In this document: one piece after another, positions 45,880 through 62,508 of the stretch | How positions within the stretch are numbered: the stretch's first letter is position 1 | How the letters are laid out: each line of letters opens with the position of its first letter | Assembly (NCBI RefSeq): GCF_001571145.1 | Contig: NZ_BCTF01000002.1 | Span: 124,001 to 188,000 of the forward strand | Length of the DNA: 64,000 bases | Reading direction: 5' to 3' | Source of the DNA: Hydrogenophaga flava NBRC 102514 | GTDB taxonomy: Bacteria; Pseudomonadota; Gammaproteobacteria; Burkholderiales; Burkholderiaceae_C | The notes under the pieces: model-generated | Seen by the model: the letters and a program-made list of their open reading frames with translations, nothing else | Told to the model about the DNA's origin: nothing | Database searches by the model: none | Made by a program: the position numbers and the translations under genes

Positions 45880-46898
45880 GAGGCGGTCTTGGCCAGCAGG
45901 TTCATGCGCGCGAGCAGCTTCTTCTCGCGCTCGACAGTGGCGAGCACCGCCTGGCGGTAGTCGCGCGTGCCCAGGTAGTCGAGCGACTGATCGTACTTGG
46001 CAAGCGCGCCCGCATGGCGTTCGCTGAACATGGCCTTGTGGAACACGTCGTGCAGCTTCTGCACCACCGCGGGTGGTGTGGCGGCCGGTGCGGCCAGGCC
46101 CCAGGGGGAGGTGTAGACCGCCTGCGGGTAGCCCAGCTCGCGCATGGTGGGCGCGTCGGGCCAGCGCGGGTTGCGCGCGGCGTTGAAGGTGGCGAGCACG
46201 CGCATCTGGCCTTTCTCGACCCAGGGTGCGAAGCCGGTGGAGTTGACGCCCGCCATGATCTGCGCGCCCGCGATGGCGAGCATCTGGTCGGCCGTGCCCT
46301 TGTAGGGCACGTGCACGTACTTCACGTTGTGCTGCAGCAGGATCTCTTCCATCGCCAGGTGGGCGGTGGTGCCGACGCCGGTGGAGCCCAGGATGAGTTC
46401 GCCGGGGTGCCTGGTGGCCCAGTCGATCAGCTCGGTGACGCTCTTGAACGGGCTGTTGGCCGGCACCAGCAGGCCGAAGCTCACGCCCGAGACCTGCAGG
46501 ATGGGTGCGAGGTCGGTCACCGGGTCCCAGGGCACGTGGTTCATCAGCGCGTGGCGGTAGACGGTGATGGGCACCTGGCCGATGGTGTGACCGTCAGGCT
46601 CGGCCGCCTTGAGTGCGGGCGCCACCAGCGTGCCGGCCGCGCCGGGCTTGTTGACCACCAGCACCGGCTGGCCCAGCAGCGGCTCGGCCTCTTCGCACAG
46701 GATGCGGATCGTCAGATCCGTCTGGCCACCCGCGGGCCAGGGCACGATGAGCTGCAGCGGCTTGCTGGGGAAGGGCGCCTGGGCCCTTGCCAGTGGTGCT
46801 GCGGCCAGTGCCACACCCCAGCCCAGCCATTGCCGGCGTGTCACACCAGGGTGTGTCGGAATGGAACAGCGAGGGACAGGGGTGTTGCGTCTGGCCAT
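45876..46898 (-). CDS. Bug/TctC-type tripartite tricarboxylate binding protein
   Basis: This 340-residue periplasmic protein has a twin-arginine-like leader (TRRQWLGWGVALAAAPLARA) and the Bug fold: LQLIVPWPAGGQTDLTIR, LVVNKPGAAGTLVAPALK, FGLLVPANSPFKSVTEL, GSTGVGTTAHLAMEEIL and VPYKGTADQMLAIAGAQI. No TctA/TctB membrane genes are adjacent, as is usual for the many orphan Bug proteins in Burkholderiales. It is cotranscribed with the ABC ATPase. Ligand unknown, possibly a small carboxylate or a metal-carboxylate complex in this setting. Confidence 0.87.
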   Translation of the reverse strand: MARRNTPVPRCSIPTHPGVTRRQWLGWGVALAAAPLARAQAPFPSKPLQLIVPWPAGGQTDLTIRILCEEAEPLLGQPVLVVNKPGAAGTLVAPALKAAEPDGHTIGQVPITVYRHALMNHVPWDPVTDLAPILQVSGVSFGLLVPANSPFKSVTELIDWATRHPGELILGSTGVGTTAHLAMEEILLQHNVKYVHVPYKGTADQMLAIAGAQIMAGVNSTGFAPWVEKGQMRVLATFNAARNPRWPDAPTMRELGYPQAVYTSPWGLAAPAATPPAVVQKLHDVFHKAMFSERHAGALAKYDQSLDYLGTRDYRQAVLATVEREKKLLARMNLLAKTAS

Positions 46899-47052: not shown

Positions 47053-48057
47053 ATGGCCCTTCGTGCCACCGCATTCCGCCGTTCCCTGCGCCCCCTCACC
47101 GCGGCCCTGTGCGCCGCCGGCGCCTCGCTCGCCTTCAGCCTGCCTGCCCATGCCGAAAGCAAGGTCTACGTGTCCAGCGAGAAGGACAACAAGCTCTACG
47201 TGTTCAACACCGCGGGCGAGCGGCAGGGGGCCATCGACGTGTGCAAGCGCCCGCGCGACATGTCGTTCAACGCCGATGGTTCGCAGATCTACGTGATCTG
47301 CGGCGACAGCAACGCCATGGGTGTGGTGGACGTGGCCGGCGGCAAGCTGGCCGGCACAGTGCCGCTGGGCGAGAGCCCGGAGATGTTCGACCTCAGCCCC
47401 GACGGCAAGACCGCCTACGTGTCGGTGGAAGACGACAGCGTGCTGGGGGCCTACGACATCGCCACCAAGAAGCCGGTGTTTGAAGTGAAGACCGGTGGTG
47501 AGCCCGAAGGTGTGCTGGTCACGCCCGATGGCAAGACGGCCTACGTCACGTCCGAGGTGGCCAACGTGGTCCACGTGATCGACCTGGGCACGAAGAAGGT
47601 CACCAAGAACATCAAGGTCGGCAAGCGCCCGCGCCGCTTCGTCATGTCGCCCGACGGCAGCGAGCTGTGGGTCACCAACGAACTCGATGCGACCGTGAGC
47701 GTGGTCGACACCAAGACCCACACCGAGAAGCAGAAGATCAAGTTCGAGGTCAAGGGCATGCGCCCGGCCGACATCACGCCCGTGGGCATGGCGATCAGCC
47801 CCGACGGCAAGAGCATGTGGGTGGGCCTGGGGCGCGCCAACCACGTGGCCGAGGTGGACGTGGCGAGCAAGGCGGTGAAGAACCAGGTGCTGGTGGGCAA
47901 GCGCGCCTGGGGCCTGGGCTTCACGCCCGATGGCAAGACCCTGTTCGTGGCCAACGGCCTGTCGGACGACATGACGCTGGTGGACACCGCTGCGGCCAAG
48001 GCGATCAAGACCGTTCCCGCCGGTCGCGTGCCACACACCATTCTTGTGAGCAAATGA
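47053..48057 (+). CDS. YVTN beta-propeller protein of the PQQ catabolism system
   Basis: This 334-residue secreted protein has a leader ending in AHAE and then about seven blades, each with the pattern G-x-x-P-x-x-x-x-x-x-P-D-G-K-x-x-Y-V (for example GESPEMFDLSPDGKTAYV and GEPEGVLVTPDGKTAYV). This matches the PQQ-dependent catabolism-associated beta-propeller family found beside quinoprotein dehydrogenases and in lut clusters. Two Cys (VCKRPRD, YVICGDS) may pair. First gene of a plus-strand operon; its stop overlaps a possible ATG of the next gene (ATGA). Confidence 0.88.
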   Translation: MALRATAFRRSLRPLTAALCAAGASLAFSLPAHAESKVYVSSEKDNKLYVFNTAGERQGAIDVCKRPRDMSFNADGSQIYVICGDSNAMGVVDVAGGKLAGTVPLGESPEMFDLSPDGKTAYVSVEDDSVLGAYDIATKKPVFEVKTGGEPEGVLVTPDGKTAYVTSEVANVVHVIDLGTKKVTKNIKVGKRPRRFVMSPDGSELWVTNELDATVSVVDTKTHTEKQKIKFEVKGMRPADITPVGMAISPDGKSMWVGLGRANHVAEVDVASKAVKNQVLVGKRAWGLGFTPDGKTLFVANGLSDDMTLVDTAAAKAIKTVPAGRVPHTILVSK

Positions 48058-48107
48058 CAGAGTCTGTGGCCCACCCCCATCGCTTGCCCACTTCGTGTGG
48101 CCGCTCC

Positions 48108-48157
48108 GCCCCTCAAGGGGCAATGCCTGCGGCCCGGCAAAGCCGGTTCCGCGGCAT
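48108..48157. repeat. Double-hairpin intergenic repeat (copy A)
   Basis: GCCCCT-CA-AGGGGC (48108-48121) is followed by a second hairpin CCGGC-AAA-GCCGG (48134-48146) inside GCGG...CCGC arms. The second hairpin shares CCCGGC-x3-GCCGGTTCC with the element at 53994-54050. It overlaps the start of the binding-protein gene, so the signal peptide n-region is partly repeat-encoded. Confidence 0.65.
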
Positions 48158-49343
48158 TCTGGGCTTGGGTTTGTGGTGTGCCTGCGTGTGGGCGTCGGTG
48201 CCTGCTCCAGCGCTGGCCGCCACCAAGGTCACCATCGCGGTGGTGTCGCTGGACGGCGACCCGCGCCACGCGCCGAGGTGGCTGGAGAAGGCCTACCCCG
48301 GCCACCCGACCGGGCGCGCCATCGACGGCGTGACGCTGGCGGCCGAAGACTCGGCGTTCGAGCTGGACGCCGCCGGCATCGCGCTGGAGGTCAAGGACGT
48401 GGTGCTGCCCAACGCAGCGGGCCTGAACAAGGCCCTGGCCGAGCTGAAGGCCGCCAAGGTGCAGCATGTGGTGGCCGACCTGCCGGCGGCCGAACTGCGT
48501 GCGCTGGTGCAGGCCGCGCCGGCCGCGCTGGGCGGGGCCATCGTGTTCAACGCCGCGGCCGACGACGACGCGCTGCGCGGCGCGCAGTGCGCGGCGCACC
48601 TGCTGCACACCATCCCCAGCCGCGCGATGCTCAGCGACGCGCTGGCGCAGTACCTGGCCGCGCGCAACTGGCGCAAGGCCCTGGTGCTGCAGGGCCCGCT
48701 GCCGGGCGACGCGCCCATGCTGGAGGCCTTCAACCGCGCGGCCAAGCGCTACGGCATCAAGGCCACGTCCACCAAACCCTTCAAGCTGACCGGCGACCCG
48801 CGCGAGCGCGACCTGGGCAATGTGCGCCTGCTCACCGGCAGCGACCGTGAACACGAGGTGGTGGCGGTGCTGGACAGCGACGGCGAGTTCGCGCGCACCG
48901 TGCCCTATGCCACGCAACTGCCGCGGCCGGTGGTGGGTGCCAATGGTCTGGTGGCCGTGCCCTGGCACCCGCTTTGGGAGCGCAATGGTGGCCCGCAGCT
49001 CTCGCGCCGCTTTGCCAAGGACCACAAGCGCCCCATGACCGGCCACGACTGGGCCGCCTGGATCGCGGGCCGTGCAGTGGCGACCGTTCTGGTCGATCTG
49101 CCCAAAGCGCCCATCGCGCAGCAGCTCAAGGCGCTGCGCGGCGGGCCGGTGGCGGTGGACGGCTTCAAGGGCCCGCGCCTGTCGTTCCGCGCCTGGGACG
49201 GGCAGCTGCGCCAGCCGATCTTCCTGAGCCATGTCGACGGTGTGGTGGGTGTGGCGCCGCTGGACGGCGTGCTGCACCCCAAGGAAGTGATGGACACGCT
49301 GGGCGTGGACGAGGCGGAAAGCGCATGCAAACAGCGACCCTGA
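48123..49343 (+). CDS. ABC substrate-binding protein of the PQQ alcohol-dehydrogenase system
   Basis: This 406-residue exported protein (signal peptide FRGILGLGLWCACVWASVPAPALA) has the branched-chain amino-acid-type binding fold: VTIAVVSLDGDPRHAPRWLEKAY, a two-lobe body, FRAWDGQLRQPIFL and DGVVGVAPLDGVLHP. It matches the binding proteins found with PQQ-dependent alcohol dehydrogenases (LutA-like). An earlier ATG at 48054 would overlap the propeller stop and add 23 residues; 48123 gives a normal signal peptide and has an AAGGGG site. It overlaps the permease start by 19 nt. Confidence 0.85.
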   Translation: MPAARQSRFRGILGLGLWCACVWASVPAPALAATKVTIAVVSLDGDPRHAPRWLEKAYPGHPTGRAIDGVTLAAEDSAFELDAAGIALEVKDVVLPNAAGLNKALAELKAAKVQHVVADLPAAELRALVQAAPAALGGAIVFNAAADDDALRGAQCAAHLLHTIPSRAMLSDALAQYLAARNWRKALVLQGPLPGDAPMLEAFNRAAKRYGIKATSTKPFKLTGDPRERDLGNVRLLTGSDREHEVVAVLDSDGEFARTVPYATQLPRPVVGANGLVAVPWHPLWERNGGPQLSRRFAKDHKRPMTGHDWAAWIAGRAVATVLVDLPKAPIAQQLKALRGGPVAVDGFKGPRLSFRAWDGQLRQPIFLSHVDGVVGVAPLDGVLHPKEVMDTLGVDEAESACKQRP

Positions 49344-50170
49344 ACGCCCCTGACCCGGCGCCCGCCCTGCTGCCCCACCTGCTGCGCGCCCTGCGCGCAG
49401 TGGTGGGCCGCGAGATCGGGCGCTTCCTGCGCCAGCCCTCGCGCCTGGGCTCGGCCCTGGTGCGGCCGCTGCTGTGGTTCGTGGTGTTTTCCGCGGGCTT
49501 CCACAACGTGTTCGGCGTGGCGATTGCGCCGCCCTACGAGACCTATGTGGAATACAAGGAATACATGGTGCCCGGCCTGCTGGGCATGGTGGCGCTGTTC
49601 AACGGCATGCAGAGCTCGCTCTCCATGGTCTACGACCGCGAGATGGGCGTGATGCGCCTGCTGCTCACCGCACCGCTGGCGCGCGGCTGGCTGCTGGCCT
49701 TCAAGCTGCTGGCGGGCACGGCGCTGTCGGTGTTGCAGATGGTGGTGTTCCTGGCGATCGCGTGGGCCTTCGGCGTGGAGCTGCCGCTGCTGCACCTGCC
49801 TGCCGCCCTGCTGGCGATGGTGTGTGGCGCGGTGATGCTGGCCTCGGTCGGGCTGGTGCTGTCGGTGTATGTGAAGCAGCTGGAGAACTTCGCCGGCACG
49901 ATGAACTTCGTGATCTTCCCGATGTTCTTCATCAGCCCCGCGCTCTACCCGCTGTGGAAGCTCGAAGAGTCGGGCGCCTGGTGGCTGCTCAAGCTGGCGC
50001 AGGCCAACCCCTTCACCCACGCGGTCGAGGCGATCCGCTTTGCGATGTACGGGCAGTTCAACGCCACGGCCTGGGCGGTGGTGCTGGGCTGCACAGTGGT
50101 GTTTTTTGTGGCCGCGCTCTGGGGTTACGACCCTCAGCGGGGTTCGATCAGCAAGAAGCCTGGCGGCTGA
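49325..50170 (+). CDS. ABC-2 type permease of the PQQ alcohol-dehydrogenase system
   Basis: This 281-residue membrane protein has six hydrophobic helices in the ABC-2 layout and the segments GREIGRFLRQPSRLGSALVRPLLWFVVFS, MVPGLLGMVALFNGMQSSLSMVYDREMGVMRLLLTAPL and NPFTHAVEAIRFAMYGQ. It should pair with the ATPase encoded at 45127-45879. In lut-type clusters this permease (LutF-like) belongs to the lanthanide transport system. It is translationally coupled to the binding protein. Confidence 0.88.
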   Translation: MQTATLNAPDPAPALLPHLLRALRAVVGREIGRFLRQPSRLGSALVRPLLWFVVFSAGFHNVFGVAIAPPYETYVEYKEYMVPGLLGMVALFNGMQSSLSMVYDREMGVMRLLLTAPLARGWLLAFKLLAGTALSVLQMVVFLAIAWAFGVELPLLHLPAALLAMVCGAVMLASVGLVLSVYVKQLENFAGTMNFVIFPMFFISPALYPLWKLEESGAWWLLKLAQANPFTHAVEAIRFAMYGQFNATAWAVVLGCTVVFFVAALWGYDPQRGSISKKPGG

Positions 50171-50191: not shown

Positions 50192-50989
50192 ATGCGCCTT
50201 GCTTCCAACCGCCGCCAATGGTTGCTGTCGACCGCCGCGCTGATCGGTGGGTCTGCGCTGGCGCAGGAAGACCAGACCGGCGGCGATCCGCTGGGCTCGA
50301 TGCAGTACCCCAGCCTGCGCGAGCAGACCATCGGCAAGGCCACAGCGGTGTTCAGCGACGCGGTGATCGTCAAGGGGCCGGCCTTCGCCGACGACGCGAT
50401 GAACGTGCCGCTGCTGGTGGACGCGCGGGCGCTGTCCGCGGTCGGTGGCGGGGTGGCGCGCATCAAGGTGGCGGTGGACCGCAACCCGGTGCGCCAGGTG
50501 CTGGACTTCGAACCGCTGCGCGCGCTGCCCATGCTCGCCTTCCGCATCCGCATGGAACAGGCATCGCCGGTGCGCGCCTTCGTGCAGACGAAGGACGGGC
50601 AGTGGCACGTGGGCAGCACCTGGGTGCAGGCAGCGGGCGGCGGCTGCACGGTGCCCGGCCTCACCCGCGCCGACGGTTCGTGGAGCAAGACCCTGGGCCA
50701 GGTGCAGGCGCGCTTTTTCAACAACGTGATCGAAGGCAGCCGCCGCCTGCGCCTGCGCGTGATGCACCCGATGGACACCGGCCTGGTGGCGGGCATCCCG
50801 GCCTTCTACATCGAGCAGATGGAGCTGCAGGACCCGGGCGGCCAGGCGTGGTGGCGCATCGCGCTGCACGAACCGGTGTCGGAGAACCCGCTCATCACCT
50901 TCGAGCTGCCGCCCGCGTCACCACCGGCCTTCCGTCTGCTCGGGCGAGACAACAACGGCAACCGCATCGACGCGGAGGTAAGGGCGTGA
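50192..50989 (+). CDS. Quinoprotein dehydrogenase-associated SoxYZ-like carrier
   Basis: This 265-residue exported protein begins with RRQWLLSTAALIGGSALAQ. Its N-terminal half is SoxY-like (RALSAVGGGVARIKVAVDRNPVRQVLDFEP) and the C-terminal half SoxZ-like (MHPMDTGLVAGIPAFYIEQMEL, GRDNNGNRIDAEVRA). A Cys lies between them in AAGGGCTVPG, reminiscent of the carrier Cys of SoxY. It belongs to the fused SoxYZ-like family that accompanies PQQ dehydrogenases; the carried group is unknown. The stop overlaps the next GTG by 4 nt. Confidence 0.87.
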   Translation: MRLASNRRQWLLSTAALIGGSALAQEDQTGGDPLGSMQYPSLREQTIGKATAVFSDAVIVKGPAFADDAMNVPLLVDARALSAVGGGVARIKVAVDRNPVRQVLDFEPLRALPMLAFRIRMEQASPVRAFVQTKDGQWHVGSTWVQAAGGGCTVPGLTRADGSWSKTLGQVQARFFNNVIEGSRRLRLRVMHPMDTGLVAGIPAFYIEQMELQDPGGQAWWRIALHEPVSENPLITFELPPASPPAFRLLGRDNNGNRIDAEVRA

Positions 50990-51981
50990 AGCGCCTGTCT
51001 TGGATGCTGCTGGCGCTCGCAGCGGGTGCGGTGCAGGCGCAGCCGGTGGCCGTGCCGCCGTTCGCTTCAAAGCCCGACCTGGCGCGCGCAGACTACGACC
51101 TCAAACCCCGCCAGATCGCGCCAGGCACCTGGGTGATCGAGGGTGAGGTGGCCGATTTCTCGCGCTCCAACGGCTGCAACATCATCAACACCGCCTTCAT
51201 CGACACTGGCGACGGCGTGGTGGTGATCAACACCGGGCCGTCGCGGCTGTACGGCGAGCAGCAGCGCCGGGCCATTGAACGGCTGACCAAAGCGCCGGTG
51301 CGCAAGGTGCTGCAGCTGAACCTGCACCCCGACTACTTCTTCGGCCACCAGGCCTGGGCCGACCGGCCGACCGAAGCGCTGACCGGCACCATCGCCGGCG
51401 CGCGCGCCGAGGGTGGCGCCTACGCCGACAACCTCTACCGGCTCTGCGGCGACTGGATGCGCGGCACCGAGTCCACGCCCTCGCGCGAAGCCATCGATCC
51501 CAAGGCACTGCCGCAGACGCTGCCACTCGGAACGCACAAGCTGGAGCTGATGCGCCTGCACGGCCACACCGCCGACGATCTGGTGGTGCTGGACACCACC
51601 ACCGGTGTGCTGTTCGCAGGTGGCCTGGTGTTCACCGAGCGCGTGCCGACCATGCCGCACGCCGACTTCGCCGCGTGGCTCGCGAGCCTGGACACGCTGG
51701 AGCAGCTGCTGGCCAGCGGCAAGGCCAGAACCGTGGTGCCCAGCCACGGGCCGGTGCACGAGGGCGCGGCAGGTGTGCGCCAGACGCGCGACTGGCTGCA
51801 GTGGCTCACCACGCTCATGCAGTCGTCGGCCGAGCGTGGGCTGGACCTGGGCGAGGTGCTGCGCACGCCGGTGCCCGAGCGCTTCGCGAAATGGGCCGCG
51901 CAGCCTGCGGAACTGCAGCGCTCGCTGACCCAGTGGTACCCGCGCTACGAGCAGCGCGTGCTCGCTGCGCCGCCGCGGTGA
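50986..51981 (+). CDS. Quinoprotein relay system zinc metallohydrolase
   Basis: This 331-residue exported MBL-fold protein starts at GTG 50986, overlapping the SoxYZ-like gene by 4 nt. The signal peptide ends in AVQAQ. The metal site is atypical: LNLHPDYFFGHQAW replaces the usual HxHxDH, with HGHTADDLVVLD and VPSHGPVHEG downstream. This is the pattern of metallohydrolases grouped with SoxYZ-like carriers and quinoprotein dehydrogenases. Biochemical role is not established. It ends just before the inverted repeat and promoter of the dehydrogenase gene. Confidence 0.85.
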   Translation: MKRLSWMLLALAAGAVQAQPVAVPPFASKPDLARADYDLKPRQIAPGTWVIEGEVADFSRSNGCNIINTAFIDTGDGVVVINTGPSRLYGEQQRRAIERLTKAPVRKVLQLNLHPDYFFGHQAWADRPTEALTGTIAGARAEGGAYADNLYRLCGDWMRGTESTPSREAIDPKALPQTLPLGTHKLELMRLHGHTADDLVVLDTTTGVLFAGGLVFTERVPTMPHADFAAWLASLDTLEQLLASGKARTVVPSHGPVHEGAAGVRQTRDWLQWLTTLMQSSAERGLDLGEVLRTPVPERFAKWAAQPAELQRSLTQWYPRYEQRVLAAPPR

Positions 51982-52248: not shown

Positions 52249-53970
52249 GTGAAACGCACCCTACTGAGCCTTTTGGTCATGGCCGCCACGGCCCACGTCA
52301 GCGCCCAGGGCGTGACCGACGCGATGATCGCCAACGACGCGGCCACGCCCGACAACGTCCTGAGCTGGGGCCTGGGCACGCAAGGCCAGCGCCACTCCAC
52401 CCTGACGGGCATCAACGCCAAGAACATCAACAAGCTGGTCCCGGTGTGGTCCATGTCCTTCGGCGGCGAGAAGCAGCGCGGCCAGCAGAGCCAGCCGCTG
52501 GTGCACAAGGGCAAGATGTTCGTCACCGCGTCCTACTCGCGCATCTACGCGGTGGACAGCAAGACGGGCAAGAAGCTCTGGAAGTACGAGCACCGCCTGC
52601 CCGAGGGCATCATGCCCTGCTGCGACGTGATCAACCGCGGCGCCGCGCTGTACGACAACCTGGTCATCTTCGGCACGCTGGACGCCCAGCTCGTGGCGCT
52701 CGACCAGGACACCGGCAAGGTGGTCTGGCGCGAGAAGATCGACGACTACTCTGCGGGCTACAGCTACACCGCCGCTCCGCTGATCGCCGAAGGCCTGCTG
52801 ATGACCGGCGTGTCCGGTGGTGAATTCGGTGTGGTCGGCCGCGTGGAAGCGCGCGACCCCAAGACCGGCAAGATGGTCTGGACCCGCCCCGTGGTCGAAG
52901 GCCACATGGGCTACAAGGACGGCAAGGAAAACGGCATCACCGGCACCACCAACGCATCGTGGCCCGGCGAGACGTGGAAGACCGGCGGCGCGGCCACCTG
53001 GCTGGGTGGTACCTACGACGCCAAGACCGGTCTGGCCTACTTCGGCACCGGCAACCCCGGCCCCTGGAACAGCCACGTGCGCAAGGGCGACAACCTGTAC
53101 TCCGCCTCCACCGTCGCCATCGACGTGAAGACCGGCCAGATCAAGTGGCACTACCAGTCCACCCCGAACGACGGCTGGGACTACGACGGTGTGAACGAGT
53201 TCATCACCTTTGACATGGACGGCAAGCGCGTCGGTGCCAAGGCCGACCGCAACGGATTCTTCTATGTGAACGACGCCGAGACCGGCAAGCTGCTCAACGC
53301 GTTCCCGTTCGTGAAGAAGGTGACCTGGGCCACCGGCATCGACCTCAAGACCGGCCGCCCGAACTACGACCCGGCCAACCGCCCGGGCGACCCGACCGCC
53401 GCCGGTGGCGACGGCACCAAGGGCAAGTCGGTGTTCTCGGCGCCGGGCTTCCTGGGTGGCAAGAACCAGATGCCCATGGCCTACAGCCCCAAGACCGGCC
53501 TGTTCTACGTGCCCACCAACGAATGGGGTATGGAGATCTGGAACGAGCCCATCACCTACAAGAAGGGCGCGGCCTACCTGGGCGCCGGCTTCACCATCAA
53601 GCCGCTGTTCGACGACCACATCGGCTCGCTGCGCGCGATCGATCCGAAGACCGGCAAGGTGGCCTGGGAAGTCAAGAACGAGGCCCCGCTCTGGGGTGGC
53701 GTGCTGACCGCGGGTGACCTGGTGTTCTGGGGCACGCCCGAGGGTTACCTGAAGGCCGCCGATGCCAAGACCGGCAAGGTGGTGTGGCAGTTCCAGACCG
53801 GCTCTGGCGTGGTGGCACCTCCCATCACCTGGACGCAGGACGGCGAGCAGTACGTCTCGGTGGTTTCCGGCTGGGGCGGTGCGGTGCCGCTGTGGGGCGG
53901 TGAAGTGGCCAAGAAGGTCAACTTCCTGGAGCAGGGCGGCTCGGTCTGGACCTTTAAAGTGATGAGGTGA
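52249..53970 (+). CDS. PQQ-dependent alcohol dehydrogenase, lanthanide type (XoxF/ExaF/PedH-like)
   Basis: This 573-residue periplasmic quinoprotein has a signal peptide ending in VSAQG and an eight-bladed W-motif propeller with DxxTGK repeats. The vicinal disulfide C124-C125 (MPCCDV) stacks on PQQ. The active site reads [13 protein letters not shown]311 is the catalytic Asp, and D313 two residues later is the extra Asp that coordinates a lanthanide in XoxF/ExaF/PedH and is Ala in calcium enzymes such as MxaF. Substrate could be methanol or ethanol and other primary alcohols. Starts at GTG 52249; cytochrome c follows 164 nt later. Confidence 0.92.
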
Positions 53971-54050: not shown

Positions 54051-54134
54051 GTGCTGGATGGGGCACTTCCTCCTCCGTTGTGCTGGAGAGGGCCCTGTCC
54101 ATTTTTTCGTCTGTCGTTTTTCTGGTTGTTGATC

Positions 54135-54461
54135 ATGCGCACTCTCCTTCTCCTCCTCTCCTCCGGTGTTCTGCTTGCTTCCGGTGCCGTACACGCGGTC
54201 GATGAAGCGGCCGCGATCGAGCTGGCCAAGAACAACGGTTGCCTGTCCTGCCACTCGGCCAAGGAAAAGATCGTCGGCCCCGCTTACAGCGATGTGGCCG
54301 ACAAGTACAGGAACGACAAGGACGCCGTGGCCAACCTGGTCCAGTCGATCCAGTACGGCAGCAAGGGCAAGTGGGGCCGCATTCCGATGCCACCCCATCC
54401 CAGCATGAGTGCGGCCGACATCAAGACCCTCGCGCAATGGGTCATGACCGCCCAACACTGA
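54135..54461 (+). CDS. Cytochrome c (c551/c552-like)
   Basis: This 108-residue exported cytochrome has a signal peptide (LLLLLSSGVLLASGAVHA), a single heme site CLSCH (NNGCLSCHSAKEK) and a likely axial Met in GRIPMPPHP near the C-terminus. Size and motifs fit class I c551/c552. It is the expected electron acceptor of the quinoprotein dehydrogenase, the role XoxG plays in methylotrophs. Its 3' end overlaps the next gene by 25 nt. Confidence 0.92.
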   Translation: MRTLLLLLSSGVLLASGAVHAVDEAAAIELAKNNGCLSCHSAKEKIVGPAYSDVADKYRNDKDAVANLVQSIQYGSKGKWGRIPMPPHPSMSAADIKTLAQWVMTAQH

Positions 54462-55762: not shown

Positions 55763-56015
55763 GGTGAAGGGTCCTCGGTGTTGTTGTGAATGACGGCCGT
55801 GCAACGCGCGCCAGCCGGGTGCGGCGCAGTCGCTCGCGTCGGCGCACAAGATCACCGGCGGGCATTAAGGAAAGCTGAAATGGCAAGGGGTTTTTCAAGG
55901 CTTACCTTTGGTTGCGCGGCATCCGGTCGGGGCGCCGGCCTGTAACAAACGGACACCCCGGGCGGTACCCGGGTGGGTAGCATTTCTGCGCCGTCAAAGA
56001 CACAGGACAACGAAC

Positions 56016-56654
56016 ATGAAGACACCCCGCACCACCTCGCTGACCAGTGGCCTTCTGGCCGTCGCCGCGGTGGTCGCCATGGGCGCAGCCTCGGCAGCCG
56101 ACGTGACTGTGAGCGTCGGGACAACACCGACACCGACCCCCACTGCGCCGACGACCTCGCCATCGGTCCGCCAGCAGGACTTCGTCATGCAGCTGGCCAA
56201 GGCCGATCTCAGCAAGCAGGGCATCACCGAGCCGACCACCGAGCAGCTGGCCCTGGCGGCCAGCAATGTGCAGGCCCTGCGCGACAAGGGCCTGGGCTGG
56301 GGCGCGATTGCGAACAGCCTGGGCCTGCGGTTCGGGGCTGTGGTCAGCGCGGCCAACCGCGCGGATCAGGCCGAGCAGGCCGCCTTGCGCAAAGCGAAGC
56401 CGCACGACACGGTGAGCACCGATGCGCCCGAACAGGGCCGCGTGGGCCTGGCGCTGGGCCGCCCGTCCGACGAGGGCAAGGGCCGCAGCGACGGCGCCGG
56501 CTCTTCGGGCAACGCAGGTGGTGGCAAAGGCGGTAGCAGCGCCAGCGGCGGCGGCAACAGCAGTGGAGGCAAGGGCGGAGGCAACGCTGGCGGGAATGGC
56601 GGCGGCAACAGTGGTGGCAAGGGGGGCGGCAACGGCGGCAAGGGCAAGAACTGA
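56016..56654 (+). CDS. Exported protein with Gly-rich low-complexity tail
   Basis: This 212-residue protein has a signal peptide (LLAVAAVVAMGAASAAD), a Thr/Pro linker, and a helical central region (FVMQLAKADLSKQGITEPTTEQLALAASNVQAL, GLGWGAIANSLGLRFGAVVSAANRA). The C-terminal tail of about 60 residues is Gly/Ser/Asn/Lys-rich (GGGKGG-type repeats). The middle resembles uncharacterised proteobacterial exported proteins with GxGWGxIAxxLG motifs. The basic glycine tail is the opposite of the acidic DUF5666 tail. The 253-nt gap upstream (55763-56015) holds the divergent promoters and no gene. Confidence 0.7.
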   Translation: MKTPRTTSLTSGLLAVAAVVAMGAASAADVTVSVGTTPTPTPTAPTTSPSVRQQDFVMQLAKADLSKQGITEPTTEQLALAASNVQALRDKGLGWGAIANSLGLRFGAVVSAANRADQAEQAALRKAKPHDTVSTDAPEQGRVGLALGRPSDEGKGRSDGAGSSGNAGGGKGGSSASGGGNSSGGKGGGNAGGNGGGNSGGKGGGNGGKGKN

Positions 56655-56675: not shown

Positions 56676-57368
56676 TCAGCGCTGCAGTTCGGCCCGCAGC
56701 ACGCCGCCGGTCATGAAGCCCTGCGGCACCTTTTCCTCGCGTTCGAGTTTCACCAGCCCCTGGCCCTTGCAGTACCACTCCCGGCTGATCAGGGGCACGT
56801 CGGTGAAACCGTGGACCGGGTCGGTGTAGAGGTTCAACCGGGCCTGGCCGACCACGCGCAGACAGGGCTTGAGCTCGCTGCCATCGGCCCGCGTCACCAC
56901 ATCGTCCACCGACTCGATGCGCCAGGTCATCTGGGCCTTGTGCGTGTACTTCAGGTCGCGCGGGTGCTCGTTGCGGCGTTGCAGCAGGTAGGGCACGGTG
57001 GCCGTGGTCCATTCGGTGCCCACTGCATAGGGCGCCTTGAGCACCCACAAGGGTTCGGCATCGGCCGTGGGTTGTTCGTCGATGTCGGTGCGGGTCGCGA
57101 TGCGGCGCACGCCCTGGTCGTCCACCTTCAGGTAGTAGCTCACACCGGCCGAGTGGTGGCGCACTGCGACCGGCTGGTCCTGGAACACCGCAGGCTCGTC
57201 CACGCGCATCACCCATTCTTCGGCCTCGCGCGGCTCGTCCATCTGGTACGTGACCGCCAGCGTCTGCTCGTCGCCCGAGCGCAGCGGAAACCATTCGTTG
57301 CCCAGGTCGCGGCCACCGCAGGCGGTCAGCAGCGCCAGAGGTGCGCAGAGGAGGAGGTGACGGCTCAT
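56676..57368 (-). CDS. Putative lipoprotein, last gene of the pqq-linked operon
   Basis: This 230-residue protein has a lipobox (LALLTACGG) and a beta-rich mature part (YQMDEPREAEEWVMRVDEPAVF, YYLKVDDQGVRRIATR, YKGQGLVKLEREEK-like end). I do not recognise a family. Its ATG overlaps the stop of the 174-residue gene by 4 nt, and it is the last gene of a minus-strand series that begins with pqqA. Likely outer- or inner-membrane-attached periplasmic partner of the TolQ/ExbD-like pair. Confidence 0.7.
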   Translation of the reverse strand: MSRHLLLCAPLALLTACGGRDLGNEWFPLRSGDEQTLAVTYQMDEPREAEEWVMRVDEPAVFQDQPVAVRHHSAGVSYYLKVDDQGVRRIATRTDIDEQPTADAEPLWVLKAPYAVGTEWTTATVPYLLQRRNEHPRDLKYTHKAQMTWRIESVDDVVTRADGSELKPCLRVVGQARLNLYTDPVHGFTDVPLISREWYCKGQGLVKLEREEKVPQGFMTGGVLRAELQR

Positions 57369-57889
57369 TTTTCAGGCAACTGCGCGCGTGGCAAATCTCT
57401 GAGCTTGATCTCGACCTTGTCGTTGCTCGCCGGGCGCAGCCAGGGCAGGCTGCCGGTGCCGCGCCTGGGTTCGGTCTCGCCCAGCTGCGTATTGCCGTCG
57501 CGCGCCTTCTTGATGCCGTCGCCCAGGATGCGGTGCAGATCTTTTTCGTAGGGCAGCTTGAACTGGCGCGGCATGGCCAGCGGCGCATCGTCCTTCATCG
57601 GGTGAACCCAGAGAAAGATCGCGCCTTCGTGGCCACGACCGGGGCTGGGTTCGTCGAACACGGCCGACAGCAGCACGAACTGGCGCGGCAGCTCGTCCTC
57701 GGCGGGCCAGCCGGCCAGACCGCGGAAGGTCTGGAACGAGAACACATAGAAGCCACTGACCATCACCACCAGCGTGGCCTTCAGGCCCCAGTGCCAGCGC
57801 GTGCCCAGACACAGGATCAGCAACAGGAAGGCCAGCAGCGCGTAAGCGATGGACAGCAGCAGCAACTGGGAAGAGACGGCAGGGATCAT
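57365..57889 (-). CDS. Membrane protein of unknown function in the TolQ/ExbD-like operon
   Basis: This 174-residue protein has two N-terminal membrane helices (LLLLSIAYALLAFLLLILCLG and ATLVVMVSGFYVFSF) followed by a soluble C-terminal part (FDEPSPGRGHEGAIFLWVHP, FKLPYEKDLHRILGDGIKKARDG). No family recognised. The ATG at 57889 is 20 nt after the ExbD-like stop and the stop overlaps the lipoprotein start by 4 nt, so all four genes act together. Confidence 0.7.
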   Translation of the reverse strand: MIPAVSSQLLLLSIAYALLAFLLLILCLGTRWHWGLKATLVVMVSGFYVFSFQTFRGLAGWPAEDELPRQFVLLSAVFDEPSPGRGHEGAIFLWVHPMKDDAPLAMPRQFKLPYEKDLHRILGDGIKKARDGNTQLGETEPRRGTGSLPWLRPASNDKVEIKLRDLPRAQLPEK

Positions 57890-57909
57890 GGTTCTTGTTG
57901 TGGTGGGGT

Positions 57910-58521
57910 TCAGAGCCCGGCGCGCTGCACGATGGTCTTGGGCGTGGTGCTCAGCGCCAGCACCTGACCCGCGTCGTCCAGCGTGAAGCGCACCAGGGTG
58001 CGTTCGTCGCCCTTGCGTGGGATCTGCTGGGTGCCGGTGTAGACGATCTCGGCCTGCGGGTTGACCTTGACCACCATCACCGTCACCTCTACGGGTTGCT
58101 GGTCGCCGCTGTCGTAGTAATGGGCGTTGACCACGTACTCGCCGGGCACGATGCCGCGCAGGGTGACGATCTCCTGCCGGATGGCGCTGCTGATCAGCTT
58201 GCCGTTGACCAGCACGCTGTTGTTCTTGGCGCCGCGGTCGTCGCGGTCCAGATGCAGCATGCCGGCGTCGCGCTGGCGGAACCACAGCGTCTTGCCGCCG
58301 GGTTCGAGCACCCAGGTGTCCACGTCGTTGGGGTTGTTGTCGGGCCAGGACACCGTGACCATGAACTCGGCCTTGGCCGGCACGTCGCCCGCCTTGCGGG
58401 CCTGCGGGTTGAAGGCCAGGATGGCGATGACGAAACAGAAGACGAAGGCGATCAACATGTTGAACAACATGTCGTAGAACGGGTCGGCCTCGGTGTCACG
58501 TACCGGCCGGCCGATCGCCAT
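57910..58521 (-). CDS. ExbD/TolR-like membrane protein
   Basis: This 203-residue protein has one N-terminal membrane helix preceded by an acidic residue pair (DPFYDMLFNMLIAFVFCFVIAIL), placed as the proton-carrying Asp of ExbD/TolR (the D-x-x-x-x-L pattern at the helix start). A larger than usual periplasmic domain follows (SWPDNNPNDVDTWVLEPGGKTLWF, IVPGEYVVNAHYYDS), beta-rich and unlike standard ExbD. Overlaps the TolQ-like gene by 26 nt. With that partner it should form a proton-driven motor unit. The target is unknown. Confidence 0.75.
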   Translation of the reverse strand: MAIGRPVRDTEADPFYDMLFNMLIAFVFCFVIAILAFNPQARKAGDVPAKAEFMVTVSWPDNNPNDVDTWVLEPGGKTLWFRQRDAGMLHLDRDDRGAKNNSVLVNGKLISSAIRQEIVTLRGIVPGEYVVNAHYYDSGDQQPVEVTVMVVKVNPQAEIVYTGTQQIPRKGDERTLVRFTLDDAGQVLALSTTPKTIVQRAGL

Positions 58522-59221
58522 CGTCAGGCTCCGTGGGTTGCAGGGACAGGGCCAGCGCATCGGCCACCAGCGCGTCAGCAAACCGGTCCAGCCGCATCAG
58601 CTGCATGCCCAGCAGGATGTTGCCGGTCAGCCCGGTCACCGTCGTCAGCAGCGCGATGCCCAGGCCGCCGGTGAGGCTCCTGAGCAGCTGCGCGCTCTGG
58701 CTGGGGTCGAAGCTGTCCATCTGGCCCAGCTCCAGCGCGAGGATGGAAAAACCGATCACTTTGCCCAGCAGGCCCAGCTTGAGCTGGATGCCGTTGAGCC
58801 ACCAGGCCATCTCGTGCGGGCCGTGCGCACGCTCGCCCAGCACCTGGAGCCAGGACGCGCGGTCGGCGCCGGGACGCGCGGTGCCCTGCAGGAACTCGCC
58901 GCTCCAGCCGTGGGGCTGTCCCGCGTCGAGCGCGCTGCGCTGGCGGCCCAGATCCCAGGCGCGGCGCCCGGCCCATAGCGAGCAGCCGATGAACAGCACG
59001 ACGATCACCAGCGTCAGGTGCGTCGGGTCGGCCTCCACCAGACGGTGCCAGGCGCCTGCGCGCCAGAGCAGCCAGGCCGCGAACACCAGCAGACCCATGT
59101 AGGCCAGCCAGAGCAGGAACAGGCCCTGGTCCGCGCGCTCCACGTTCAGCGTGGGCCGCGCGGCACCCGGCAGGCGCCGCACCAGAAGGGCCCCGAACAT
59201 GCGGTGGGTGGAGGTGTTCAT
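58496..59221 (-). CDS. MotA/TolQ/ExbB-like proton channel protein
   Basis: This 241-residue protein has two early helices (LFLLWLAYMGLLVFAAWLLW and LTLVIVVLFIGCSLWAG), a cytosolic stretch, and two long helices (QLKLGLLGKVIGFSILALEL and SLTGGLGIALLTTVTGLTGNILLGMQL). The GxxxALxTTxxGLxxN pattern of the last one is the ExbB/TolQ/MotA signature with the Thr residues of the proton path. It begins 4 nt after the pqqE stop and is thus probably expressed from the pqq operon. ATG 59221 gives the usual topology. Confidence 0.8.
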   Translation of the reverse strand: MNTSTHRMFGALLVRRLPGAARPTLNVERADQGLFLLWLAYMGLLVFAAWLLWRAGAWHRLVEADPTHLTLVIVVLFIGCSLWAGRRAWDLGRQRSALDAGQPHGWSGEFLQGTARPGADRASWLQVLGERAHGPHEMAWWLNGIQLKLGLLGKVIGFSILALELGQMDSFDPSQSAQLLRSLTGGLGIALLTTVTGLTGNILLGMQLMRLDRFADALVADALALSLQPTEPDDGDRPAGT

Positions 59222-59223
59222 GG

Positions 59224-59306
59224 GTTCACGGCGCACGGCCGCCCGAAGCCGTGAACGCGCCCTCTTGGGGGGCAGCGACCGCCGCAGGCGCGGAGCGTGG
59301 GGGCTC
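59224..59306. repeat. Hairpin and Comamonadaceae-type repeat at the pqqE/TolQ-like junction
   Basis: GTTCACGGC (59224-59232) and GCCGTGAAC (59248-59256) form a 9-bp perfect inverted repeat around the pqqE stop codon. Next to it is a GC-rich stretch (CCCTCTTGGGGGGCAGCG to GGAGCGTGGGGGCT, 59260-59306) of a type I associate with repeated intergenic elements in Comamonadaceae. The repeat encodes the last 20 or so residues of PqqE. Confidence 0.55.
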
Positions 59307-60458
59307 GTTCGGATGCAATGCCTTCGATTCCGCATCGCTGCGGAACACGATGGGGATGTTGCGGCGCTTGGGCGCGTCGCGCACCACGGCCACCACCTTC
59401 TGATGGTGGGCCGACTTGCTGCACACCGGGTCGGTTTCGGCCGGATCGCCGGTGAGCAGGAAGGCCTGGCAGCGGCAACCACCGAAGTCCTTGTGGCGCT
59501 CGTCGCAGCTGCGGCAGGTCGGCTTCATCCAGGCGTCGCCGCGGTAGGTGTTGAAGGCGTTGCTGCGCTGCCAGATGTCGGCGATGGACACTTCCTTGAC
59601 GTTGGGGAGCGCCAGGCCGGGCAGGTCGCGCGCGTTGTGGCAGGGCATGGCCAGGCCGTCGGGCGCGATGGAGAGGAACACCGCACCCCAGCCGTTCATG
59701 CAGGCTTTGGGGCGCTCTTCGAAGTAGTCGGGCACCACGAAGAGCACGCGGCACTTGTGGCCGTCGGTTTTGGCTTCCTGCTCGGCGCGGAAGGCGTTGA
59801 CCTCGGCCTCGGCCACGGCCAGTTCCTCGCGCGTGGGCATGAGGTGGTCGCGGTTGATCCAGGCCCAGCCGTAGTACTGGGTGTTGGCCAGTTCCAGGTA
59901 CTCGGCCTCCAACGCCACGGCCATGTCGATGATCTTGCGCACATGCGGCAGGTTGTGCCGGTGCAGCACGCAGTTCATCACCATGGGCCAGTCGTGTGCC
60001 TTGATGAGCTTGGCCACGCGCTGCTTGAGGTCGAAGGTCTTGGTGTGGCTGAGGAAGTCGTTGAGCTCCTTGGTGGAGTCCTGGAACGACAGCTGCACGT
60101 GGTCCAGCCCCGCGTCCTTGAGCTTCTGCGCACGGGTGGGCGTCAGGCCCACACCCGATGTGATGAGGTTGGTGTAGTAGCCCAGGCGGTGCGCTTCCTG
60201 CACCAGCTCTTCCAGGTCGTCGCGCAGCAGCGGCTCGCCGCCGGAGAAGCCCAGCTGCGCCGCGCCGAGCTTGCGCGCCTGTGTCATCACGTCGACCCAC
60301 TGCGCCGTGCTCAGCTCGTCACGCACCTGCGCGTGGCTCGTCGGGTTGTAGCAAAAGACGCAGTGCAGCGGGCACTGGTAGGTCAGCTCCGCCAGCAGCC
60401 ACAGCGGCGGGCCAGCGGGGATGGGGGAGGCGCTCAGAAGATCAGTCGATCCAGCCAC
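59226..60458 (-). CDS. pqqE: PQQ biosynthesis radical SAM protein PqqE
   Basis: This 410-residue radical SAM/SPASM enzyme links the Glu and Tyr side chains of PqqA. The radical SAM cluster is CPLHCVFC (C29, C33, C36); LGFSGGEPLLRDDL follows. The SPASM cluster Cys include those in KACMNGWG, MPCHN, PTCRSCDERH, GGCRCQAF and DPVCSKS. The core ends near residue 365; the C-terminal 40 residues (Pro/Ala-rich) are an extension partly encoded by a repeat. The start overlaps pqqD by 17 nt. Confidence 0.96.
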   Translation of the reverse strand: MAGSTDLLSASPIPAGPPLWLLAELTYQCPLHCVFCYNPTSHAQVRDELSTAQWVDVMTQARKLGAAQLGFSGGEPLLRDDLEELVQEAHRLGYYTNLITSGVGLTPTRAQKLKDAGLDHVQLSFQDSTKELNDFLSHTKTFDLKQRVAKLIKAHDWPMVMNCVLHRHNLPHVRKIIDMAVALEAEYLELANTQYYGWAWINRDHLMPTREELAVAEAEVNAFRAEQEAKTDGHKCRVLFVVPDYFEERPKACMNGWGAVFLSIAPDGLAMPCHNARDLPGLALPNVKEVSIADIWQRSNAFNTYRGDAWMKPTCRSCDERHKDFGGCRCQAFLLTGDPAETDPVCSKSAHHQKVVAVVRDAPKRRNIPIVFRSDAESKALHPNEPPRSAPAAVAAPQEGAFTASGGRAP

Positions 60459-60714
60459 GGCGTTGGCCCTCTTCGAGCAGGTTGCGGACTTCAGGGCCGA
60501 TGCCTTGTGCGTTGAACGCGGCTTCCAGCTCGCTCACGATGGCGTCCACCGTGTGATCTCCATCGCAGCGCTTGAGGATCTCGGCTGCGCTTGGGTTGAG
60601 CTGCACCATGCCTTCGGGGTAGAGCAGCACCCAGCGCGACTGCGCCTCTTCGTACTGCAGCCGGAAGCGGCGCGAGAGCTTGGGGTGGTCGGGCAGGGCG
60701 GCGCTCATTGACAT
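60442..60714 (-). CDS. pqqD: PqqA-binding chaperone PqqD
   Basis: This 90-residue RRE-type peptide chaperone delivers PqqA to PqqE. It has [42 protein letters not shown] and a helical end [10 protein letters not shown], the normal PqqD fold and size. The start at 60714 overlaps the pqqC stop by 10 nt and its end overlaps pqqE by 17 nt; ATG 60708 is an alternative. Confidence 0.95.
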
Positions 60715-61436
60715 GCCTTTTCAATCGCATCCAGCATCGTCCAGAGGATGTCCAGCTTGAACTGCAGGATGTCCAGCGCGTGGTGCTGCTGCTCGCGGGT
60801 CTGGAAGTGCGCCAGCGTCACGCGCAGGCCGTGTTCCACGTCGCGGCTGGCCAGTGGAATGCGGCTGCGGAAGTAGGCCAGGCCGTTGGATTCGATCCAG
60901 GGGTAGTGCGTGGGCCAGGTGGCCAGGCGGTCCTTGTGGATCTGCGGCGCGAACATCTCGGTGAGCGACGAACACACCGCTTCCTGCCAGGGCGCCTTCG
61001 CCGCGAAATTCACATAGGCGTCGCAGGCAAAGCGCACCGCCGGCACCACGTGCTGCAACGACCACAGTTCTTCGCGCGAAATGCCCACGGCTTCGCCCAG
61101 GCGTGTCCAGGCCTCGATGCCGCCTGCGGCCGAGCCTTGGTGATCACCGTGGCCATCGTGGTCGAGGATGCGCTCGACCCACAGCCGGCGGTGCTCGCGG
61201 TCGGGCATGTTGGCCAGGATGGCGGCGTCCTTGCGCGGGATGCAGATCTGGTAGTAGAAGCGGTTGGCCACCCAGCAGCGGATCTCGTCCGGTGTGCAAC
61301 CGCCCGAGTTCATGCGCACGTTGAACGGGTGGTGGATGTGGTAGCTGCGGCCCTTGTCGCGCAGCTGGGTTTCGAACTCCTGTGCGCTCCACGCGGACAG
61401 GCCTTCGTGGGGGCGGTGGTGGCGGGCGATCTCCAT
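60705..61436 (-). CDS. pqqC: Pyrroloquinoline-quinone synthase PqqC
   Basis: This 243-residue all-helical, cofactor-free oxidase carries out the last ring closure and eight-electron oxidation of PQQ. Family segments are [42 protein letters not shown] and [26 protein letters not shown], containing the active-site His, Arg and Lys. 7 nt after the pqqB stop; full length. Confidence 0.97.
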
Positions 61437-61443
61437 GGCGTGC

Positions 61444-62361
61444 TCAGAAAGAAATGTCCATGCCGTCGTGGGACACCTCGATGCCGTGCTGCGTCAGCAG
61501 TGCGCGTTCGGGCGAGTCTTCCACCAGCATCGGGTTGGTGTTGTTGATGTGGATGAGAACCTTGCGCACGCCGGCGGGCAGGCGGTCCAGCTGTTCGATC
61601 ATGCCGCCCGGTCCGCTCTGCGGCAGGTGGCCCATGTCGAGTGCGGCCTTGGACGAGAGGCCCAGGCGCTGCATCTCGTCGTGGGTCCAGAAGGTGCCGT
61701 CGACCAGCACCACGGCGCAGCCGCTCATGAGGTCGATCAGTTCGTCGGTGACCTCGGCCAGGCCGGGCGCGTAGAAGGCCTTGGCGCCGGTGGCCGGGTT
61801 GGTGATCAGCAGGCCGATGTTGTCGCCCGGCCGCGGGTTGCCGCGGAATGGTGAGTACGGCGGCGGCTTGGACGAGAGCGAGACGGTGTGCAGCTGCAGG
61901 CCGGGCAGGGCGGCGATGTGCACCGCGCTGCCGTCGATGGGCAGCTCCTGCCGCTCGGTGCCGCAGTAGTGCGAGAGGATGCCGGTGATGGGGAAGCCGC
62001 TGCCGATGTCCGAGAACACCTCGGGCGTGGCCAGCAGCGGCAGCGGCGTCTTGCGCTCGCGCAGCATCAGCAGGCCGGTGACGTGGTCGATCTGCGCGTC
62101 CATCAGCAGCACGGCGGCGATACCGCTGTCGCGGATGGCGCGGGCGGGCTGCAGCTCCGGGTTGTCGCGGATCTGCGTGAGGATGTCGGGTGAGGCGTTG
62201 ACCAGCAGCCAGTCCTGGCCGTTGTCACTTACCGCAATCGACGACTGGGTGCGGGCGCGCGCCTTGAGCGTGCCGCGGCGCAGGCCGCTGCAGTTGGGGC
62301 AGTTGCAGTTCCACTGCGGGAAACCGCCACCGGCGGAAGAACCAAGAACGCGGATGCGCAT
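61444..62361 (-). CDS. pqqB: PQQ biosynthesis hydroxylase PqqB
   Basis: This 305-residue MBL-fold protein begins [24 protein letters not shown], with the Cys cluster that holds structural zinc. The active site shows [18 protein letters not shown] instead of a hydrolase HxHxDH, in line with PqqB acting as an iron hydroxylase that forms the dihydroxyphenylalanine-type intermediate. [14 protein letters not shown] and HINNTNPML are further family marks. It is separated from pqqA by an intrinsic terminator. Confidence 0.96.
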
Positions 62362-62433: not shown

Positions 62434-62508
62434 TCAGCGGTTGGCGATGTACATCGTGATTTCAAAACCGAAACGCAGGTCGGTGAAGGCGGGGGTTGTC
62501 CACTGCAT
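62434..62508 (-). CDS. pqqA: PQQ precursor peptide PqqA
   Basis: This 24-residue peptide starts MQWTTPAFTDLRFGFE and ends TMYIANR. E16 and Y20 are in the E-x3-Y spacing whose side chains are joined to make PQQ. Start at 62508 follows a GGAGACAAGAC leader. The gene was found by eye; it heads the minus-strand pqqABCDE operon. Confidence 0.97.
   Translation of the reverse strand: MQWTTPAFTDLRFGFEITMYIANR

Follow-up and report, generated by a model that had tools for sequence, protein, structure and literature searches.

We analysed a stretch of 64,000 nucleotides (nt) from Hydrogenophaga flava NBRC 102514 (contig NZ_BCTF01000002.1; below, this whole stretch is called the window), in which the genes for the synthesis of pyrroloquinoline quinone (PQQ) are followed by a unit of four genes. 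The unit encodes a TolQ-like channel protein, an ExbD-like partner, a membrane protein with two helices, and a lipoprotein. A sequence-only reading of the window had placed these genes at 56676-59221, with the channel gene starting 4 nt after pqqE, and both statements were confirmed. The series pqqA-B-C-D-E (62508 to 59226) thus continues into the unit as follows.

62434-62508, minus strand: peptide of 24 amino acids (aa) with E16 and Y20, which we take to be PqqA from its motif
61444-62361, minus strand: pqqB (NCBIfam TIGR02108, above cut-off)
60705-61436, minus strand: pqqC (NCBIfam TIGR02111, above cut-off)
60442-60714, minus strand: pqqD (NCBIfam TIGR03859, above cut-off)
59226-60458, minus strand: pqqE (TIGR02109, 505 bits with a cut-off of 381)
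58496-59221, minus strand: TolQ/MotA-type channel subunit (A subunit), 241 aa, ATG start, PF01618 superfamily
57910-58521, minus strand: ExbD-like B subunit, 203 aa, one transmembrane (TM) helix and a predicted beta-sandwich
57365-57889, minus strand: membrane protein with two TM helices (third core subunit), 174 aa
56676-57368, minus strand: lipoprotein, 230 aa, lipobox LTAC17

The genes are overlapping or closely spaced, as had been noticed earlier: the channel gene and the ExbD-like gene overlap by 26 nt, a gap of 20 nt follows, and the two-helix and lipoprotein genes overlap by 4 nt. A simple scan, in which the numbers of sites were about those of shuffled sequences, found neither a promoter nor a terminator in the gap that separates pqqE from the channel gene and one promoter-like site directly before the lipoprotein gene (57394-57367, minus strand). 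None of the four proteins matched a Pfam or NCBIfam family above its cut-off, and PHROGs and PADLOC yielded nothing below E 0.02. Because all four proteins fall below the family cut-offs, the link described here is hard to spot in automatic annotation.

Subunits of the unit

One homology scan kept the best 80 of 168 matches, and the scan of viral contigs the best 80 of 82. Removal of near-copies and odd lengths left 66 bacterial and 48 phage proteins of the ExbD-like type, 71 and 42 of the two-helix type, and 73 and 45 of the channel type. The alignments contained, in addition to the window's own protein, 66 and 26, 64 and 23, and 44 and 21 of these, respectively; locus L260 was left out of one alignment (A7).

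By its sequence, the channel subunit is a member of the MotA/TolQ/ExbB superfamily (PF01618). The family was matched by all 66 aligned relatives at E ≤ 0.1 (best E 1.6e-11), and the window protein on its own scored 14.5 bits, below the cut-off of 22.9. Four residues, D65, G153, G157, and T194, were identical in all 66 aligned rows. The closest profile matches in the PDB were weak, namely MotA (8gqy, E 0.024) and TolQ (E 0.038), and both types of system share features with the unit. Like TolQ-TolR and ExbB-ExbD, it combines a PF01618 channel with an adjoining single-TM partner whose helix contains an Asp close to its beginning, and the channel helices carry the GxxG and TT motifs. However, TolQ and ExbB have three hydrophobic segments, whereas the channel of the unit has four (34-52, 67-85, 145-163, and 186-204 in the window protein), as do MotA and, among the channel rows, 42 of 45 from bacteria and 18 of 21 from phages. 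This arrangement resembles MotA-MotB and PomA-PomB, but in contrast to MotA the cytoplasmic loop is short, and in the phage rows it is nearly gone.

The B subunit had been described as ExbD-like, with a large periplasmic domain. The helix and its Asp agree with this description, but the periplasmic domain (residues 45-203) does not. The structural model (mean predicted local distance difference test score, pLDDT, 89.3) has a single TM helix followed by an all-beta sandwich. D17, near the start of the helix, presumably corresponds by its motif to D25 of ExbD and to the common ExbD-TolR position. It was found in 41 of 41 lipoprotein-linked rows, 17 of 26 other bacterial rows, and all 23 readable phage rows, three more being gapped. 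Seven further residues (W59, D66, D68, D94, D95, G97, and E117) were invariant in all 93 rows. The ExbD family PF02472, in contrast, had no match in the window protein (E ≤ 1) and did not appear for the 93 members, for which 25 of 26 families were listed; a genome-wide PF02472 search found four other genes and not the ExbD-like gene of the unit. The periplasmic sandwich sets the unit apart from TolR and ExbD. It also differs from MotB and PomB, as no OmpA-like domain was among the same 25 of 26 families, although one member matched MotB_plug (E 0.049).

Comparison of the B-subunit model with the PDB using VIA yielded six chains with Z scores of 9.1-11.0, after which the scores dropped to 6.4. 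Three of the six are labelled TerD: 3ibz (Z 11.0, root-mean-square deviation 4.5 over 142 residues), 2qz7 (9.6), and 2kxt (9.1), the title of which names calcium-binding; the alignments with these three covered 126-142 residues. The other three were 9a6r (10.1), 2qng (9.8, unknown function), and 7jtk (9.5, radial spoke). Foldseek found nothing in the PDB at E ≤ 0.001, and in BFVD six rows at this threshold, phage proteins that are mostly uncharacterised. A kinship with TerD (PF02342) at the level of sequence was also considered but was not supported: hhalign was run against five and then four TerD proteins, and the comparison with the four gave E 0.2, with a shallow TerD alignment. Of the 93 members, 14 matched DUF2135 (PF09906) weakly (E ≤ 0.1, the best being 0.0022). 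To our knowledge, no stator partner with TerD or DUF2135 in its periplasmic part has been described.

A third, two-TM subunit is a further difference from TolQ-TolR and ExbB-ExbD. Its model (mean pLDDT 88.1) shows helices at 4-29 and 34-58 and a small beta domain at 70-165. Foldseek found nothing for it in the PDB at E ≤ 0.001, VIA gave no Z of 8 or higher, and the profile search against PDB sequences had a best E of 0.5. Its Pfam matches were weak and scattered; the commonest, DUF4131 (17 of 88 at E ≤ 0.1), was taken as a chance match between membrane proteins. In the lipoprotein, C17 and C169 were identical in all 23 aligned sequences (22 of the 49 found plus that of the window). Both relatives scanned showed a weak DUF3108-like similarity below the cut-off, and the best E of the profile against PDB sequences was 0.033. 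Two loci had odd arrangements: L106 contained two lipoprotein matches, and in L146 the lipoprotein gene lay on the opposite strand. No Pfam or NCBIfam match to TonB, TolA, TolB, or Pal was found among the four proteins of the unit.

ZorA-ZorB of the Zorya defence systems belong to the same superfamily, and PADLOC gave a weak ZorA match for the channel (E 0.029). Together with the homologues carried by phages, this might suggest a Zorya-like anti-phage device. The partners of ZorA in Zorya are ZorB plus ZorC/D or ZorE, whereas the B subunit of the unit differs and none of the other three proteins had a PADLOC match. The recognised neighbours are PQQ genes, with no scan of the neighbours for defence genes having been made. 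We regard this as the least probable of the explanations considered.

Distribution and association with quinoproteins

The ExbD-like gene was found in 20 of 120 genomes of the family, including that of the window, and in all 20 the four genes occurred together in one order. The other 19 genomes represent one of the same genus and 18 of other genera. All 19 stretches (up to 20 kb) outside the window genome again carried the four genes, and the neighbours included at least one of pqqBCDE, a pqqB-like gene, ped-type transporter genes, a dehydrogenase, cytochrome c, and TonB receptors. These observations confirm that the set is kept together far beyond chance. In wider samples, the ExbD-like gene of the unit was present in 6 of 250 genomes of the order and 17 of 398 of the phylum. 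Profiles were grown on 102 bacterial loci, of which 99 were distinct after duplicates had been removed; these 99 contained 98 channel, 99 ExbD-like, 97 two-helix, and 67 lipoprotein genes.

A PQQ-dependent alcohol dehydrogenase (PQQ-ADH; TIGR03075, counted only above the cut-off, 49 of 120 genomes, compared with 85 at E ≤ 0.001) was present in all 20 unit-containing genomes of the family and in 29 of the 100 others (Fisher p 1e-9). For pqqC, again counted only above the cut-off (26 of 120, compared with 29 at E ≤ 0.001), the respective fractions were 14 of 20 and 12 of 100 (p 3e-7). Within the 49 PQQ-ADH genomes, pqqC was found in 14 of 20 with the unit and 10 of 29 without it (p 0.02). The remaining six unit-containing genomes thus have a PQQ-ADH, while pqqC did not exceed the cut-off. 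Among the 369 genomes of the class, pqqC was found in 26 of 41 with the unit and in 26 of 328 without it (p 2e-15); the 41 include weak or partial matches (G527, G440, G695, G727, and G728).

The sequence-only reading had regarded the unit as an appendage of the pqq operon, co-expressed with PQQ synthesis. This was not upheld, as the unit lies mostly away from pqq genes: pqqC or pqqE was found in 11 of the 67 distinct lipoprotein-linked loci, within the stretch examined. A dehydrogenase was found in 33, at least two ped-type genes in 20, and any of these in 50, so that a link with PQQ enzymes does hold. For loci without the lipoprotein, PQQ, quinoprotein, or ped genes were found in 5 of 32. 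The motif WD[YF]D, which we take to be the signature of lanthanide-type PQQ-ADHs, was present in 36 of 37 readable enzymes at lipoprotein-linked loci from several taxa, compared with the best PQQ-ADH of 12 of 29 family genomes that have the enzyme but not the unit; the motif was unreadable in L106, L129, L134, and L164 and in 8 of 30 control loci. Because every one of the 20 unit-containing family genomes has a PQQ-ADH but 14 have pqqC, the unit is tied less to PQQ synthesis than to quinoprotein alcohol oxidation, mostly by enzymes with the motif of the lanthanide type. The earlier idea of a proton-driven envelope machine tied to PQQ is therefore retained with regard to a conserved envelope unit of the ion-channel type and to PQQ biology, with the tie moved from synthesis to oxidation.

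The following features of the same kind lie in the remainder of the window.

43049-45139, plus strand: TonB-dependent receptor, best model PqqU NF041535 (629 bits, below the cut-off of 1200)
45127-45879, minus strand: ABC-type ATPase of the PQQ-ADH system (TIGR03864)
47053-48057, plus strand: YVTN beta-propeller protein of the PQQ-ADH system (TIGR03866)
48054-49343, plus strand: ABC-type substrate-binding protein of the PQQ-ADH system (TIGR03863)
49325-50170, plus strand: PedC-type ABC permease (TIGR03861)
50192-50989, plus strand: quinoprotein-associated SoxYZ-like carrier (TIGR04557)
51004-51981, plus strand: quinoprotein relay system zinc metallohydrolase 1 (TIGR04558)
52249-53970, plus strand: PQQ-ADH with the motif WDYD (NCBIfam and motif)
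54051-54461, plus strand: cytochrome c (Pfam)

With its PedC-type permease, ABC ATPase, binding protein, YVTN protein, and PQQ-ADH, the window resembles the ped and lut clusters of P. putida and M. extorquens. The gene set matches the set-up that is described, in the passages available, for PedA1A2BC, which P. putida needs for growth at low La3+ (PMC6839425). A difference from the window is that a term search in the text of a 2026 paper on the ped cluster found TolQ, ExbB, ExbD, and MotA nowhere named (PMC12997753). Two genes of the MotA/TolQ/ExbB family, MEALZ_3990 and MEALZ_3991, are reported to be lower with La than with Ca (PMC6277846). In M. extorquens, orf6 and orf7, which lie near pqqE, are reported to be needed with La3+ (PMC7391723). 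Two additional genes of the window were noted. The product of 45876-46898 looks by eye like the binding protein of a tripartite transporter (no NCBIfam match), and the gene recurs near the lipoprotein gene in 20 of 102 loci. The gene at 55908-56654, convergent to the unit, encodes a Gly/Ser/Lys-rich, exported-looking protein with no Pfam family above the cut-off.

The position of the unit 4 nt after pqqE would fit an exporter that brings newly made PQQ into the periplasm, and moving PQQ was among the roles proposed earlier. In eight further loci (L021, L023, L046, L091, L092, L111, L112, and L115) the unit is likewise next after pqqE among the genes sought. However, export is not expected in organisms that do not make PQQ, and because 6 of the 20 unit genomes of the family lack pqqC above the cut-off, we consider this role very improbable; moreover, pqqC occurs without the unit in 12 family genomes and in 26 of the class.

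The unit might also energise the PqqU-like receptor, or lanthanophore uptake, in place of ExbBD-TonB. Such a receptor is encoded in the window, in a genome that itself has pqq genes, and a 2025 paper reports that PqqU is syntenic with pqq genes in four Burkholderiales (PMC12124388). Receptor homologues were found in 12 of the 67 lipoprotein-linked loci, and in the family in 4 of 6 loci without pqqC versus 3 of 13 others. In the other 55 of the 67 stretches examined, however, no receptor gene was present. The unit contains no TonB-like protein, as had been remarked, but the same does not apply to the genome, which has four TonB_C matches and four ExbD/TolR (PF02472) matches, all on other contigs. 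Powering a TonB receptor is thus possible for the unit but not needed, and because TonB and ExbD genes exist elsewhere in the genome, a dedicated replacement of ExbBD appears improbable.

Exchangeable partners and proposed function

The core of three genes also occurs in a second type of bacterial locus. Its order, in many Gammaproteobacteria, is L,D-transpeptidase, DUF302 lipoprotein, the three core genes, and a vWA-FHA protein; the families of these type-2 partners were assigned by Pfam on representatives from L130 and L139. Often a two-component system and a cytochrome b561 lie upstream on the other strand (L130, L139, L285-L287, L290, L291, and others). Removal of duplicates from 120 loci left 115. 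The lipoprotein was found in 57 of these, with PQQ-type neighbours in 42 and type-2 genes in none. The other 58 comprised 31 with type-2 genes, 6 with PQQ-type neighbours, and 24 with neither. Three genomes (G482, G503, and G597) contain one locus of each type apiece. Because the partners differ between loci, the core is most likely an engine with an exchangeable output, which in loci of the window type would be quinoprotein alcohol oxidation.

Our best explanation, which we put forward tentatively, is a proton-driven motor of the MotA/TolQ/ExbB kind whose putative periplasmic metal domain would assist in supplying the apo-dehydrogenase with metal or metal-PQQ, or in passing these on via the lipoprotein. 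The motor would consist of the four-TM TolQ-like channel, the single-TM axle subunit with D17, and the two-TM third subunit, with the lipoprotein added to this core in quinoprotein loci. By analogy with the superfamily, the channel and its partner may form a proton-conducting wheel and axle, and any 5:2 stoichiometry would be carried over in the same way. Protons would pass D17 and T194 and thereby move the axle, and the periplasmic domain may bind Ca2+ or Ln3+ via D66, D68, D94, and D95. This work might then serve to insert metal or metal-PQQ into the apo-dehydrogenase; alternatively, either might be handed across the envelope through the lipoprotein. As a result, PQQ would become usable, whether made by the same operon or imported. 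Metal handling is the least sure step of this proposal; it is suggested by the acid-rich periplasmic domain together with the lanthanide-type enzymes and transporters.

Several observations weigh against this explanation. At the residue level, D17 is lacking in nine bacterial B subunits, from Bradyrhizobium and relatives and some Gammaproteobacteria (L142, L156, L158, L160, L161, and L167-L170); in these, position 17 is Ala or Val, position 21 Lys, and position 24 Gln. In the GLLGT motif of the channel, Lys replaces Thr in 14 of 30 lipoprotein-linked rows, including that of the window (K154). Scores of hidden Markov models for TerD lay inside the range of shuffled sequences. As sequence comparison does not support TerD, we claim a likeness of fold alone, and a metal site would be based on this fold and the conserved acids. 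At the genome level, 15 of the 41 unit-containing genomes of the class lack pqqC, and the genome-count statistics ignore shared ancestry. WD[YF]D was also found in the best PQQ-ADH of at least 12 of the 29 family genomes that have such an enzyme without the unit, and thus the unit is not required for these enzymes. Finally, the core occurs without nearby PQQ genes in the type-2 loci and in phages, so that the core itself must have a function other than the loading of metal-PQQ.

The strongest rival is a general role in the maintenance of the envelope, similar to Tol-Pal, in which the machine acts on the outer membrane or peptidoglycan, its partners vary by locus, and its co-expression with quinoproteins reflects envelope stress by solvents or aldehydes. 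The type-2 loci, with their L,D-transpeptidase, DUF302 lipoprotein, and vWA-FHA protein, favour such a role, as do the mutual exclusion of the lipoprotein and these partners (0 of 57 versus 31 of 58) and the core on its own in phages. A general role would not predict, however, that the unit is restricted to PQQ-ADH genomes in the family, and the genome has four other ExbD/TolR matches. Therefore, we judge this possibility to be real but rather unlikely.

The core in phages

On viral contigs, the best 80 of 82 loci with the ExbD-like gene were analysed, many of them near-copies. A channel gene preceded it in the same strand order in all 80, a two-helix gene followed it in 76 (67 by profile and 9 by BLAST), and the profile search found no lipoprotein in any of them. 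Judging by eye, the genes that neighbour the viral core include T4-type tube, capsid, and gp46/47-like genes. A search of ten proteins from phage contigs against PHROGs, nine from the core and one SbmA-like, gave a best E of 0.003. In a tree of 98 rows, phage and bacterial proteins lay on either side of one branch (99/90), without indicating a direction, and several phage rows are long.

Among named phage records, the ExbD-like gene matched 27, all of Rhizobium or Sinorhizobium phages and some of them GenBank/RefSeq pairs. The records annotate the gene as hypothetical or by number, and one place overlaps a homing-endonuclease gene. All three core genes were present in the five phages checked, namely 16-3, RHph_N3_19, vB_RleM_P10VF (identical to viral contig L235), RHph_I1_18, and RHph_X2_25; in 16-3 and RHph_X2_25, other small genes are interspersed.

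The core might represent a separate class of ion-driven envelope motor, common to lanthanide-quinoprotein bacteria and tailed phages, with an axle tipped by a Ca2+- or Ln3+-binding sandwich and with a third membrane subunit. In bacteria, it would drive metal or cofactor into quinoproteins; in phages, it would act on the envelope of the infected host or keep that envelope energised. In this full form, the proposal is doubtful. Members of the superfamily known so far power flagella, TonB uptake, Tol-Pal, gliding, and Zorya defence. If the proposal is true, the unit would add to them a class whose output domain is different and which is tied to alcohol oxidation in the periplasm, and it would bear on the unsettled question of the route by which metal and PQQ reach the periplasmic alcohol-oxidising enzyme.

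The superfamily as such is known. In the open-licence literature searched, we found no account of a PQQ-linked TolQ unit or of the phage module, and neither is mentioned in the passages available of PMC12505986, PMC12997753, PMC10460002, PMC6839425, PMC12124388, PMC10848612, and PMC7391723; the clade, the output domain, the third subunit, the quinoprotein tie, and the phage copies were not found described there. That phages should carry such a three-gene motor is unexpected, and 16-3, which according to PMC10460002 was studied in the 1960s-1980s, offers a tractable start.

Two further genes recur beside the viral core. A gene for an SbmA/BacA-type transporter, assigned by Pfam on one representative, was found in 21 of the best 80 of 82 viral loci and follows the core in 20 of them (for example, L212:9530-10495). 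A gene for a trypsin-like peptidase lies shortly before the core in two rhizobial phages (L251:7277-8176 and L255:5655-6302) and in one phage-like stretch (L279:10492-11133).

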